Assembly: GCA_001790855.1 (NCBI GenBank)
Contig: MGDH01000026.1
Coordinates: forward strand, 1 to 51,748
Source of the DNA: Candidatus Schekmanbacteria bacterium RIFCSPLOWO2_02_FULL_38_14
GTDB taxonomy: Bacteria; Schekmanbacteria; GWA2-38-11
DNA length: 51,748 bases
Reading direction: 5' to 3'
Part shown: piece by piece, positions 8,468 through 44,159 of the stretch
Layout of the letters: every line of letters begins with the position of its first letter
Position numbering within the stretch: position 1 is the stretch's first letter
Notes under the pieces: model-generated
Databases searched by the model: none
What the model saw: only the letters and a program-made list of their open reading frames with translations
What the model was told of the DNA's origin: nothing
Translations under genes and position numbers: made by a program

Positions 8468-9826
8468 ATGCAAAGCATAATACTGATAGCTGAAGATGAT
8501 AAAAAAATAGCTGAAGGGCTTGAAAAGTTTTTGAAGAAAAAGGGGCATAAGGTCCTTTTAGCTCACGATGGCAGAAAAGCGCTTGATATAGTAAAAAAGC
8601 AGAATATTAACCTGCTTCTTACAGACATGGTGCTTCCGAATATGGATGGAATCAGCCTGTTAAAAGAAACCAAAAACAGAAAACCTGAAATAGAGTGTAT
8701 TATGGTAACTGCCCATGGAACAATTGAAAAAGCAGTAGAAGCCTTGAAAATCGGCGCCTATGATTTTCTGATAAAGCCTGTAAATGTTAAGAGGCTTGGT
8801 ATTCTTATTGAGAAGGCGCTTGAAAAACAGGTCTTAATACTTAAAAACATTGAGCTTCAGCAAAAGCTTGAAGAGAGGTTTGGATTTAAAAATATAATTG
8901 GAAAAGGTAATGAGATAAAAAGAATACTTGAGCTTGTAAGTCAGGTTTCCTCTCGGAACAGCAATGTCCTCATCTACGGAGAAAGCGGTACAGGCAAGGA
9001 ACTTATTGCAAATGCAATTCATTACAGCGGAAACTTGCCGCAAAGCCCTTTTATAAAAGTCAACTGCAGCGTTTTTAATGAAGGAGTTCTTGAAAGCGAG
9101 CTTTTCGGACACGAAAAGGGATCATTTACAGGTGCTGCTTCACAGAGGATAGGAAGGTTTGAAATGGCTGACGGAGGCACTCTTTTTCTTGATGAAGTAA
9201 GCGAAATACCTCCTTCAATTCAGGTCAAGCTCCTCAGAGTAATACAGGAAAAGGAATTTGAAAGAGTTGGAGGGTCAAAAACCATCAAGGTTGATGTAAG
9301 AATAATTGCAGCAGCAAACAAGGATCTCAAAGAACTCGTAAAGCAGGAAAAATTCAGAGAGGATTTGTATTACAGGCTAAACGTTGTAAAAATTGATATT
9401 CCGCCTTTGAGAAACAGAAAAGAAGACATTCCCTTTCTTCTGAATTATTTTATTAGCAAGTTTAATAAGCAGTACGGCACTCAAATTAAAGGTGTAACTC
9501 GAAAAACGCTTAATCTGCTTTTAAATTATTATTGGCCCGGAAATGTCAGAGAGCTTGAAAACTGCATTGAATCTGCAATGGTGATGGCAAAGGATGAGTA
9601 TCTGACCCCAAAAGACCTGCCAGAATATGTTACAAGCCAGTCTGCTGACAATACTTCAGTAGTAATTGATATTGGTACTCCCCTTAAAGAAATAGAGAAA
9701 AACATTCTTACTAAAACTCTTGAGCTTGTTAAAGGAAACAAGGCAAAGGCTGCACAGCTCCTTGGAATAGGAGTAAAAACTGTTCACAGAAAATTTGAAG
9801 AATACGGCTTAAAACCTGTTAAGTGA
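8468..9826 (+). CDS. NtrC-family sigma54-dependent response regulator
   Basis: The 452-residue protein has three domains. The receiver (1-120) carries the acceptor Asp53 in LTDMVLP. The AAA+ domain (about 140-370) has Walker A GESGTGKE (171-178), the sigma54-contact loop GSFTGA (218-223, Ser in place of the usual Ala), and Walker [10 protein letters not shown]. The C-terminal Fis-type helix-turn-helix contains [20 protein letters not shown]. It remodels sigma54 holoenzyme at -24/-12 promoters. A near-consensus promoter of that type begins about 420 bases downstream, before speD, making that gene set a plausible target. Confidence 0.95.
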
Positions 9827-10248: not shown

Positions 10249-10264
10249 TGGCATGAATTTTGCA
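10249..10264 (+). promoter_or_regulatory. Sigma54 (-24/-12) promoter of the speD operon
   Basis: The sequence TGGCATGAATTTTGCA has GG at 10250-10251 and GC at 10262-10263, exactly ten bases between them, as the sigma54 consensus requires. A run of seven T precedes the -24 box. Transcription would start near 10275, 47 bases before the speD ATG. A sigma54-dependent regulator gene lies immediately upstream. Confidence 0.8.
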
Positions 10265-32970: not shown

Positions 32971-34335
32971 TTAATATGATATATTCATCCTCAGAGAAAT
33001 TATATTTTTTGTATAGTCTCCAAAGGTGCTGTTTCTTTCTTGGTGGTTAAAAGAGATTTCTGTTGTTGCATGCTTGAATATCTTAAAAGATATATCGCCT
33101 CCTGCAGTCCATCTTTTTTCCCTATTATTCCTTCTGACAAATTGCTCATTTGCACCCTCTTTAAACTCATTATCCTTATAAGAAACATTAAAATTCAAAA
33201 CCATCTTCTCGAAAAACTTTTGGTCTATATTAATATAAATGTCATTATAAATAGTATCCCTTCCAGATTTTAGTGATGAATTACTGGAAGTTCTCCTGGC
33301 TGATAAAGTAACATCTGTTCTGTCAGTAATAGAACTTTTCAAATCAAAAAAGAACGAAAGACTTCTGTTTTTTGAAGAATTAAACTCTTCAGAAGTTTCT
33401 GATATCTGGGCTGCTGTTTTAGATAAAGATGTTTCAGTTATAGACTTAGACACTGAAAAATTCATAGAAGTTTTGTCAGTAATTTTTATATCAACTGTTG
33501 ACCCCCAAGAAAGTGTATCGCTTTCAGACATAGGAATAAGTTTCTCACTCAACCCTTCCCTTATAGAATTACCTAAACCAAGCCTTCCGCTCAAAGATAA
33601 AATATTTTTAAAGCGGTGAAAAAACCCAAAATCATATTGCAAGGACTTATTATCCCTTGAAGGATCATTTTCATACTTATCAGTCTGGTAACTATAGTTT
33701 AGCATCAGACTATCTCTTGATAATATGTTCAAAACAATTAATCCCCTGAAGTTATCCACCTTGTGGTTGTTTCTATCCAGGGTAAAAATCAGGTTCTTCT
33801 CCTTATCTTTGAACTTATAAAAATCAGTTCTGTAATTTCCCTCTAATTTTATAATATCGCCAATATTAGTCCCTAAAGTAAACCTTGCATGGTTTTCTAA
33901 ACGGTCTGAGTTTTTATTAGATTCAGTCTCAGTTAAAAAGGGGCTAAATTCAGTGCCTGTAAAAGAATCATACACTTTTAGATAACTTCTCCAAGGAAGG
34001 CGTATTTCCATAGTTGTTGAATAAAAAGTATCTTGAAATCTTGTTTTTTTTTCAGTTGCTTCAGAAAAGTATCTCACAGGAGATATAACTTCTATACTAA
34101 ATTTATTTTCTCCTTTTTCAAAAATCAGTTCCATTGATGGCCCAACATTAAGATAATAAGCACTTTCTTTATTTTTTTCTTGAGATTGGTAATTATCATT
34201 ATAAGTCCAGTCAAGTGAAACTGCTGGTTTTAAAATAGCAGGACCAAGATGGATTCCTTCAGTAGCAGCTGTAGAAATATATACAGGAATTAGAAGTAAA
34301 ACAATATATATTATTATTAATTTTATAAAAAACAT
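32971..34335 (-). CDS. Outer-membrane beta-barrel protein of the exopolysaccharide locus
   Basis: The 454-residue protein has a signal peptide (about 1-23, ending ISTAA). It continues with alternating amphipathic beta strands rich in Asn, Ser and aromatic residues and ends with the aromatic MNISY, as expected for BAM-dependent barrels. It resembles the outer-membrane proteins of PEP-CTERM-associated exopolysaccharide loci (the TIGR03016/BBP2 type), but no exosortase gene is in the window. Its likely role is secretion or surface retention of the polymer. It is the first gene of the minus-strand locus. Confidence 0.8.
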   Translation of the reverse strand: MFFIKLIIIYIVLLLIPVYISTAATEGIHLGPAILKPAVSLDWTYNDNYQSQEKNKESAYYLNVGPSMELIFEKGENKFSIEVISPVRYFSEATEKKTRFQDTFYSTTMEIRLPWRSYLKVYDSFTGTEFSPFLTETESNKNSDRLENHARFTLGTNIGDIIKLEGNYRTDFYKFKDKEKNLIFTLDRNNHKVDNFRGLIVLNILSRDSLMLNYSYQTDKYENDPSRDNKSLQYDFGFFHRFKNILSLSGRLGLGNSIREGLSEKLIPMSESDTLSWGSTVDIKITDKTSMNFSVSKSITETSLSKTAAQISETSEEFNSSKNRSLSFFFDLKSSITDRTDVTLSARRTSSNSSLKSGRDTIYNDIYINIDQKFFEKMVLNFNVSYKDNEFKEGANEQFVRRNNREKRWTAGGDISFKIFKHATTEISFNHQERNSTFGDYTKNIISLRMNISY

Positions 34336-34368
34336 TATAAATTTGCTTTTTCAAACTATACATACCCC

Positions 34369-34397
34369 ATAAAATCTAATCTCTTTGCAGTTGTCAA
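34369..34397 (-). promoter_or_regulatory. Putative sigma70 promoter of the exopolysaccharide locus
   Basis: TTGACA (34397-34392, minus strand) precedes TTTTAT (34374-34369) with a 17-base spacer. It lies 34 bases before the barrel-protein ATG. Confidence 0.45.
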
Positions 34398-34508
34398 GAT
34401 TTAATAGGGAAGATTTAAATAGAACCTTAATCGGAATGAAAAGATGCTTAAGTTAATGATAGATAGATATTTTTAACAAGGATTGAAACCTTTTTAAAAA
34501 TATTGTCC

Positions 34509-34579
34509 ACCAACAATGTTGGTTCACTTAAGGTGTGAGGCCTCAGCCCCCACGCCCCACCACTGACAATGTCAGTGGT
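34509..34579. promoter_or_regulatory. Two palindromes sharing an ACAATGT core
   Basis: ACCAACAATGTTGGT (34509-34523) and the 21-base palindrome 34559-34579 (CCACTGACAATGTCAGTGG plus one flanking base on each side) are both perfect, centred on a single A. They lie 25-96 bases upstream of the -24 element of the sigma54 promoter at 34603. They could be activator sites or a transcribed hairpin repeat. This covers the otherwise geneless 34398-34602 segment. Confidence 0.5.
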
Positions 34580-34602
34580 TTTGTGAGATAAATAAATAAA
34601 AA

Positions 34603-34618
34603 TGGCATAAGTTTTGCA
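34603..34618 (+). promoter_or_regulatory. Sigma54 (-24/-12) promoter candidate
   Basis: TGGCATAAGTTTTGCA has GG at 34604-34605 and GC at 34616-34617, with the required ten-base spacing. It would give a leader of about 85 bases before ATG 34713. Confidence 0.7.
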
Positions 34619-34653
34619 TTCAAATTCTTGAAGTATAATTTTATTTTTATGCC

Positions 34654-34681
34654 TTGACAATTTCAGATAATGTTCTAAGAT
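34654..34681 (+). promoter_or_regulatory. Putative sigma70 promoter
   Basis: TTGACA (34654-34659), a 16-base spacer and TAAGAT (34676-34681) precede the secreted-protein gene by about 30 bases. It may act beside the sigma54 promoter located just upstream. Confidence 0.4.
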
Positions 34682-34712
34682 TTAAACAAATTTATTCAAG
34701 GAGGAGTTTTAG

Positions 34713-35115
34713 ATGGGAAAATATAAATTTTGTCTTAGTATTGTGATCGTTTGTGTTTCAATATTTTTCCTGACAAATATAACTTATGCTGCAACTCATG
34801 CCATTGAAGGGAAAGTATTTGAGGATAAAAACTGTAATGGACAACGAAATGGAGGAGATGGTTCGATTGCAGGTGTCACAATAACCCGCGATCCAGGTGC
34901 AATTACTACATCAAACAGCTGTTGATGGAACCTATTCTTTTTCTGGACTTGCAGCAGGAACTTATACAGTTAAAGAAACTGACCCAGCTGGATATTGCAG
35001 CACAACACCAAATAAAATAACCATTACGATTAAAAACAAAAAAGTAACAAACCAAGACTTTGGAGACAGCAAGAATACTATAAGTCCACCTGCTCTCTGC
35101 TGTCCTTCAGAATAA
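34713..35115 (+). pseudogene. Small secreted SdrD B-like domain protein, frameshifted
   Basis: The gene begins at ATG 34713 after an AAGGAGG site. It encodes a signal peptide (about 1-26, cleavage after ITYA) and an Ig-like SdrD B-type domain: AIEGKVFEDKNCNGQRNGGD, then GVTITRDPG. At about 34915-34921 the frame changes: frame one stops at a TGA (34923-34925), while frame two continues TAVDGTYSFSGLAAGTYTVK and ends SPPALCCPSE at 35115. Removing one base in AACAGCTG joins them into a single domain of about 133 residues. A sequencing error, a real mutation or programmed frameshifting would all fit. The single-domain length and CysCys end are unusual for this normally repeated domain. Confidence 0.75.
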
Positions 35116-43505: not shown

Positions 43506-43661
43506 TCAGCTTCCTTCATTAAAGCACTGGGGAATAATGCACCCGCTCTGGTTTGGTCCTGCTTGTGTGTTGTTCTTGCACACACCAAGCACAGCTTCTT
43601 CAGCAACAAGATTGACCTTGTTTAATACTGGTTTCCTGTAAGGTTTTTTTTCACAAAACAC
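43506..43661 (-). pseudogene. Cys-containing RiPP-precursor-like small peptide gene (copy A), out of frame with its start
   Basis: A 51-codon frame reads EKKPYRKPVLNKVNLVAEEA, then VLGVCKNNTQAGPNQSGC and IIPQCFNEGS before a TGA. The basic N-terminal part, EEAVLGVCK region and short Cys/Gly/Asn core look like a ribosomally made, modified peptide precursor. The best start, GTG 43654-43652, is six bases after AGGAG (43665-43661) but enters a run of eight A in the wrong frame and stops after nine codons. Nine A would give MKKKPYRKPVL in frame. GTG 43661 is in frame but overlaps its ribosome binding site. This may be slippage, phase variation, mutation or sequencing error. Copy B lies upstream. 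Confidence 0.6.
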
Positions 43662-43698
43662 TCCTATTTTAAAATAAATTCTAAATTCTAAACAATGC

Positions 43699-43746
43699 GT
43701 TGACTTTGTTCAGCATGGTGAGCTGTGAGCTTGCCGAACAGTCAAC
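43699..43746. repeat. Inverted repeat GTTGACT...AGTCAAC
   Basis: The ends GTTGACTTTGTTC (43699-43711) and GAACAGTCAAC (43736-43746) are complementary apart from two extra T. The interior, GCATGGTGAGCTGTGAGCTT, resembles widely dispersed TTCGACAAGCTCACC-type intergenic repeats. Confidence 0.5.
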
Positions 43747-43774
43747 CACAAAATTCAAAACAAATATATGAAAT

Positions 43775-43793
43775 AGCAGAGCAAGGCTCTGCT
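43775..43793. terminator. Short GC-rich hairpin between the two peptide genes
   Basis: AGCAGAGC (43775-43782) and GCTCTGCT (43786-43793) pair perfectly around AAG. There is no long T-run, so it may be an attenuator or RNA-stability structure rather than a full terminator. Confidence 0.35.
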
Positions 43794-43831
43794 GCTACTT
43801 TTCACTAAATGCTGTTCACTATTCACTTCTT

Positions 43832-43910
43832 TTAGCTTCCCTGATTAACGCACTGAGGGATAAGGCGCTGGAAGCAGTGGTTTCTGGTAAGATTTTTTAT
43901 TGGATTTCAT
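43832..43910 (-). pseudogene. RiPP-precursor-like small peptide gene (copy B), internally deleted
   Basis: ATG 43910 follows an AAGGAG site (43926-43921) by ten bases and encodes MKSNKKSYQKPLL, matching the start of copy A (KKPYRKPVL). That frame soon ends at 43845. Another frame over the same bases encodes LIPQCVNQGS and stops at 43832, matching the copy A ending IIPQCFNEGS. The whole middle of copy A is missing, so a deletion of about 75 bases plus a frame change is the simplest explanation. A sigma54-type promoter candidate lies just upstream. Confidence 0.6.
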
Positions 43911-43968: not shown

Positions 43969-43984
43969 TGCAAATTTTATGCCC
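43969..43984 (-). promoter_or_regulatory. Sigma54 (-24/-12) promoter candidate for the peptide genes
   Basis: The minus strand reads GGGCATAAAATTTGCA, with GG at 43983-43982 and GC at 43971-43970, ten bases apart. Seven T precede the -24 box, as at the speD promoter. Transcription would start near 43958, about 48 bases before ATG 43910, and could continue through copy A into the VCBS gene. Confidence 0.65.
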
Positions 43985-44069: not shown

Positions 44070-44086
44070 TGTTCAATAAATGAACA
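44070..44086. promoter_or_regulatory. Palindrome TGTTCA-N5-TGAACA, candidate activator site
   Basis: The six-base arms are perfect and the site lies about 87 bases upstream of the -24 element of the peptide promoter. A further GTTCA...TGAAC pair occurs at 44133-44159. Confidence 0.4.
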
Positions 44087-44132
44087 TTTTTCCCGGCTTC
44101 TTTTTAAGTCATTGTATTTTAACATAAAAAGT

Positions 44133-44159
44133 GTTCAAAAAACCGACATTTTTTTGAAC
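44133..44159 (-). terminator. Putative terminator of ftsK
   Basis: GTTCAAAAAA and TTTTTTGAAC form a stem directly after the ftsK stop codon, followed on the minus strand by ACTTTTTATG. The stem is AT-rich, so strength is uncertain; it could also be a protein-binding palindrome. Confidence 0.45.

Follow-up and report, generated by a model that had tools for sequence, protein, structure and literature searches.

A conserved candidate sigma54 promoter at a frameshifted SdrD_B gene of a Schekmanbacteria genome, and the probable loss of its enhancer

The 51,748-nt stretch of Candidatus Schekmanbacteria DNA analyzed here (the window) carries, at positions 34603-34618, a -24/-12 sequence in front of a gene for a small secreted protein with an SdrD_B-type domain. 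Its sequence, genome-wide statistics and conservation lead us to regard this site as a genuine, conserved sigma54 promoter, predicted to be read by RpoN-RNA polymerase. The reading that we favor, with fair confidence, is that it is the true -24/-12 promoter of an inherited SdrD_B gene whose enhancer has been lost and whose frame has been broken, leaving a copy that is probably decaying or is weakly served in another way. The 34603 promoter itself is ordinary. The analysis also yields an enhancer motif, open to testing, that would serve a PEP-CTERM/exosortase regulator beyond the Proteobacteria; its candidate targets are spread over four genomes of one candidate phylum.

The -24/-12 site and its gene

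The site, the gene behind it and the divergent neighbor are as follows.

34603..34618, plus strand: predicted sigma54 -24/-12 promoter TGGCATAAGTTTTGCA (consensus match, genome counts, sites before the G002 and G003 homologues)
34713..35115, plus strand: SdrD_B-like small secreted gene, frameshifted near 34903-34922
32971..34335, minus strand: beta-barrel porin gene (BBP2_2), divergent, first gene of a leftward polysaccharide export/biosynthesis run

An earlier note on this DNA had proposed that the sequence fits the sigma54 consensus and spacing, and 34603-34618 is indeed an exact match to TGGCAYN5TTGCW, with GG at -24 and GC at -12. The site lies in a 377-bp intergenic gap between the leftward porin gene and the ATG at 34713, which has a GGAGGAG ribosome-binding site in front of it and stands 94 nt beyond the end of the site, where a facing start codon was looked for at about 50-300 nt. 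With the usual spacing, transcription would start at about 34628-34630. An Rfam search of the window returned no match, so no RNA leader was identified, and the porin used as a query against the genome contigs found no relative. When the 281-bp upstream region was run against the whole genome, it matched nothing beyond its own position except the core of one further sigma54 site; the idea that the region is a repeat element was rejected, a second copy being absent from the genome. Within it, the segment 34507-34583 has a G+C content above that of its surroundings, holds two palindromes, sits at the proximal upstream region and is present once in the genome.

Judged from the window alone, enrichment of the pattern is weak: six matches were found with up to one mismatch allowed, against 3.59 expected, a number that 16 of 100 shuffles reach, and exact matches occur only at 10249 and 34603. 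The decision was therefore left to genome-wide counts. Throughout the 2.68-Mb genome the exact pattern occurs 38 times, compared with twice for the reversed pattern and 10 times for the same words held apart by a 6-nt instead of a 5-nt spacer. Thirty-three of these matches fall outside long ORFs and five within ORFs of 388-516 aa, while the window is about 84% coding (ORFs of at least 130 aa), so that the equal density inside coding regions named in the earlier note as grounds for doubt is not what the genome displays. At least 27 of the 33 intergenic sites are followed, on the same strand and within about 320 nt, by a start codon with a ribosome-binding site. The best named AtpD match belongs to Candidatus Schekmanbacteria GWA2_38_11, at 93%. 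The comparison set consisted of four genomes of the order, the window genome (G000), G001 (a member of the same family), G002 and G003; the three relatives hold 26, 53 and 34 matches, respectively, against 0, 1 and 1 for the reversed control. Inspection of translations behind the exact sites of the window genome revealed glnA-, amt-, pilA- and sigma-28-like genes and many signal-peptide proteins, and the suggestion that such sites stand only before accessory genes therefore fails genome-wide.

The machinery that such promoters require is encoded in the genome: RpoN (PF04552, E=3.9e-60) and 12 strong sigma54 activators (PF00158), besides weaker matches. A response regulator with an HD-GYP-like C-terminal part, recognized by inspection (L007, G000:C11:117086), has a sigma54 site of its own and adjoins a sigma54 activator gene. 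Enrichment, intergenic placement, the presence of rpoN and of activators, and sites at homologues together uphold the sigma54 promoter reading of 34603.

The gene at 34713 has a signal-peptide-like start and a single SdrD_B-type domain. The first frame stops after 70 aa, and the remainder, which ends in SPPALCC, continues in a different frame; both halves fit the family profile (34719-34922 and 34903-35106), and the homologues are intact. This frameshift, absent from the earlier note, is seen in this assembly and could have arisen as an error of assembly or consensus calling. Against PF17210 (cut-off 29.7) pieces of the frameshifted gene score 17.4 and 28.6, while all five homologues scanned score 47-59; the scores of the homologues bear out the description of the gene as SdrD-like. 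The product ends in SPPALCCPSE, is without PEP-CTERM, and falls outside the six PEP-CTERM matches (PF07589) in the genome.

With its first 69 aa as a query, the gene was found in 4 of 60 genomes, every one in this order, and a family profile matched 47 of 290 genomes at 1e-6. Full-length stand-alone copies are confined to G000, G002 and G003, the G001 copy on contig C14 being a longer two-part protein; beyond the order, among the matches listed, nearly all lie in far larger open frames; G210 (118 aa) is an exception. GYCS is common to the homologues, as is an SPP..CC at the C-terminus, which one of them has as SPQ..CC. The SdrD_B paralogue of the window genome (L072, 5854-6321) ends with more than 20 consecutive aspartates after SPPGKSCC.

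In all four genomes the gene stands tail-to-tail with atpC. At this position a sigma54 site is found in two of the three other genomes, TGGCACAGTATTTGCT in G002 (copy 1) and TGGCATAATATTTGCT in G003; the readable upstream DNA of the G001 positional homologue holds no sigma54 site, only a TTGACA-type promoter. Contig C203 of G003 has the same 16-mer; its joining to C62 was rejected, the ends having no overlap.

A paired dyad as candidate PrsR enhancer

The earlier note had pointed to PrsK/PrsR regulators, and their genes are present with scores above the NCBIfam cut-offs. PrsR, encoded by the gene at C9:83571-84068, was identified with TIGR02915 (570.7, cut-off 502.6), below which the remaining 11 strong activators score, and beside it lies one cluster encoding PrsK (426.6, cut-off 300), PrsT (565, cut-off 312.2) and an exosortase (TIGR02602, 169, cut-off 105.55).

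Comparison of the regions upstream of PEP-CTERM genes in the window genome revealed a 17-nt dyad, TGTCGG-N5-TGAACA, often present in pairs whose spacing is most often 62-66 nt. The dyad was first spotted by eye in this genome, and a position weight matrix (PWM) was built from 11 of its instances there and then run on the relatives, whose counts alone are therefore independent. The 113 sigma54 matches of the relatives yielded 111 that were scanned and 105 with at least 200 nt upstream; the G002 SdrD_B copy, one of the by-eye instances, is not among these 105. A PWM score of at least 11 was reached in 34 of the 105 upstream regions, compared with 1/102 downstream regions, 0/105 shuffled and 1/105 reversed sequences. 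Two of the positives, L206 and L198, carry TGTTCAATATTTGAACA; both belong to the 111 scanned, and whether each counts among the 34 depends on its upstream length. At both of these sites, the former before a glnA-like gene, TGTTCAATATTTGAACA is a perfect palindrome about 107-110 nt upstream; it is close to the PrsR-type dyad and may perhaps be a distinct element belonging to another activator.

Of the 143 sites in total, 41 are dyad-positive and 102 dyad-negative; PEP-CTERM genes stand behind 9 of the former and none of the latter (Fisher p = 6.6e-6). Four of the window genome's six PEP-CTERM genes have the dyad in front of them, including one, L177, that was unused in model building, and in about 254 kb of that genome's sequence (overlaps included) all matches scoring at least 18 lie upstream of a sigma54-like site. 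The association with PEP-CTERM genes links the dyad to the exosortase system and, by inference from that link, to PrsR, which probably binds it.

The dyad also occurs before genes of other kinds, encoding a 204-aa secreted protein (L018), a 52-aa RiPP-like peptide (L051), an 85-aa protein (L015) and a protein that is subtilisin-like on inspection (L027), as well as before the window's peptide promoter at 43984, the C29 SdrD_B paralogue and SdrD_B copy 1 of G002. NCBIfam offers no name for the two RiPP-like peptides, L015 or L018. The peptide of L051 (1288-1446, minus strand) is conserved with that of L280 (364-525) as a 52-53 aa sequence, KKKaFvEPKlKvY..L.DITLFTS...G.TFF, in two genomes; it is preceded by a sigma54 site with a pair of PrsR-type dyads, and its leader recalls those of modified peptides. 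On contig 150 of G001 (L073), a homologue of the secreted protein L018, whose gene is predicted to be under dyad control, adjoins the atp-linked SdrD_B gene. Searches of the open-licence literature on Schekmanbacteria with PEP-CTERM, RpoN and exosortase, and on PrsR, found no description of the dyad in Schekmanbacteria.

The promoter at 34603 is without such a dyad. Its best score is 1.0, against about 20-27 at member promoters, while the best scores of shuffled upstream regions have their median at -0.3 and reach 10.9 at the 99th percentile, and a scan of 34100-34720 for the dyad found nothing. A decayed dyad suspected by eye at about -126 from the site was rejected, 44% of shuffles being as good under a gapped profile. 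In G003 the DNA upstream of the atp-linked copy ends at a contig end, so that the enhancer of this copy could be checked in one other sigma54-keeping genome only.

These results suggest a model in which the 34603 promoter was inherited together with a small SdrD_B-domain gene whose place in the order is tail-to-tail with the ATP synthase genes. In the relatives, an NtrC-like response regulator, most likely PrsR, would switch the family on from a dyad pair about 100-190 nt upstream; in the window genome the core promoter would have been kept while the enhancer pair, probably lost, is missing and the gene has a broken frame. Since both defects are found together, the window copy is probably decaying, which would be the simplest account, or it may be weakly served by another activator or by a sigma70-like promoter. 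A broader extension of this model, for and against which we find the case evenly balanced, is that a PrsR-type activator at the new paired dyad would run one extracellular-matrix program comprising exosortase substrates, the lineage-restricted SdrD_B family with SPP..CC tails, short RiPP-like peptides and other exported proteins, from which the window copy would have dropped out with its enhancer lost and its core promoter kept. The dyad would thereby bring RiPP-like peptides and the small secreted SdrD_B proteins under PEP-CTERM/exosortase control. That a core promoter may outlive its enhancer is a warning against taking a -24/-12 match alone as proof of regulon membership.

Other readings and the other window promoters

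Three further elements lie between the porin gene and the SdrD_B gene.

34654..34681, plus strand: sigma70-like promoter TTGACA-16-TAAGAT, downstream of the sigma54 site and ahead of the gene (consensus match only)
34509..34523, no strand: palindrome ACCAACA-A-TGTTGGT, 53 bp from the next palindrome
34559..34579, no strand: perfect palindrome of 21 nt, ACCACTGACA-A-TGTCAGTGGT, lying 23 nt before the -24 element

The first of these could account for expression of the gene, the sigma54 site being then a relic. The sigma70-like sequence matches 10 of 12 consensus positions, and TTGACA-type promoters are the only ones at both G001 copies and at G002 copies 2 and 3, all of which are without a sigma54 site; stretches like TTGACAATTT.AG also stand before the copies linked to the ATP synthase genes in G001 and G002. 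We nevertheless consider this explanation unlikely: the sigma54 site is letter-perfect, which is unexpected in an old relic, the C29 paralogue in the window genome keeps both promoter types (its sigma54 site reads TGGTATAGTTTTTGCT), and promoter-like matches of this kind are common here, with 10 found against 3.9 expected.

Alternatively, the sigma54 promoter may be working under a different activator bound to the two palindromes, in which case the gene would have been rewired, not abandoned. Both palindromes are perfect, lie directly upstream about five helical turns apart and have the core ACA-A-TGT in common, and the genome encodes at least 11 further strong activators. The 34559..34579 element is possibly another activator's site, or a hairpin. 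That the gene has been rewired is nonetheless quite improbable, given that neither palindrome is enriched at other sigma54 sites or seen upstream of the G002 copy, that the 281-bp query gave no further copy of the stretch, and that the gene is frameshifted. The lack of enrichment also led us to reject the palindromes as a common enhancer; TGACANTGTCA occurs at six places in the genome, against four for its reversed control.

Very little weight attaches to a consensus match by chance at 34603, for although the controls put 2-10 of the 38 genome matches down to background and the window's six one-mismatch matches are no higher than chance, the site is intergenic, correct in orientation and spacing, and has an equivalent at the same place at homologues in two other genomes.

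The other two sigma54 promoter candidates of the window, and the elements near them, are as follows.

10249..10264, plus strand: exact sigma54 site before speD, 422 nt past the end of a gene for a response-regulator sigma54 activator, without a PrsR-type enhancer
8468..9826, plus strand: response-regulator sigma54 activator (receiver, AAA+, Fis-type HTH), below the PrsR cut-off
43969..43984, minus strand: sigma54-like site GGGCATAAAATTTGCA, followed by an ORF for a 21-aa peptide (43845-43910)
44070..44086, minus strand: proximal PrsR-type enhancer dyad TGTTCATTTATTGAACA (candidate), upstream of the peptide promoter
44132..44148, minus strand: distal PrsR-type enhancer dyad TGTCGGTTTTTTGAACA (candidate), 62 nt from the proximal dyad

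The earlier note had counted three strong -24/-12 candidates. Two of them, 34603 and speD, are exact, and the third, the peptide promoter (43984-43969, minus strand), reads GGGCAT and so carries one mismatch. Its further suggestion that the three form one coordinated regulon, here a PrsR-type one, is very improbable: the peptide promoter has a dyad pair and SdrD_B relatives have dyads too, but the genome holds 12 strong activators, and among the three window promoters the dyad is present at the peptide promoter only, the best scores at speD and 34603 being -2.5 and 1.0. The speD promoter, moreover, adjoins the 8468..9826 activator gene, whose product is its likely regulator, and on such evidence the three promoters do not form one regulon. 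Behind the peptide promoter, the stretch 43506-43910 (minus strand) comprises the 21-aa ORF and then a longer stretch that reads like a peptide, KKPYRKPVLNKVNLVAEEAVLGVCKN..., has no in-frame start to itself and lies beside a run of A; it resembles a RiPP precursor and may be frameshifted too.

Comparison with known systems

The SdrD B-like domain is known from large LPXTG adhesins, where it forms a repeat. The Schekmanbacteria proteins differ from this arrangement in having a single such domain (PF17210) in about 130 aa, between a signal-peptide-like start and a conserved end of the form GYCS...SPP..CC.

The closest regulatory parallel is the PEP-CTERM/EpsH system, for which Haft et al. 2006 (PMC1569441) describe a 17-nt upstream motif, sometimes repeated, together with a -24/-12 sigma54 site before exported-protein genes in genomes where PrsR, PrsK and PrsT are present. 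The Schekmanbacteria genome is alike in its 17-nt repeated motif, its sigma54 sites and its PrsR, PrsK and PrsT. In contrast, their motif 1 (PMC1569441) ends in TTTACA, lies at a mean of 63 nt from the sigma54 motif and was found in Proteobacteria only, whereas the Schekmanbacteria dyad reads TGTCGG-N5-TGAACA, has a proximal copy often starting 100-130 nt upstream, and also precedes genes without PEP-CTERM; the SdrD site of the window is without such a motif.

Binding upstream of PEP-CTERM genes at sigma54 promoters was detected by DAP-chip for the response regulator DVUA0057 of Desulfovibrio vulgaris (PMC3333781), and a second study of this species (PMC4641369) gives TGT/ACA half-site motifs, 9, 11 or 12 bp apart, in three activator groups. 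The Schekmanbacteria dyad, as TGT-N11-ACA, has similar half-sites; it belongs to a different phylum, and PrsR is its predicted binder. For the PEP-CTERM gene pepA of Aquincola tertiaricarbonis, the sigma54 promoter upstream (TGGCAC/CTGCTT) has been mapped, and RT-PCR showed that it depends on rpoN1 (PMC9850573); the window product, by comparison, is without PEP-CTERM, and its promoter is a predicted one. Finally, Francke et al. 2011 (PMC3162934) present sigma54, in a general statement, as a controller of the bacterial exterior with sites upstream of surface and secreted functions, and the 34603 site likewise fronts a secreted-protein gene.
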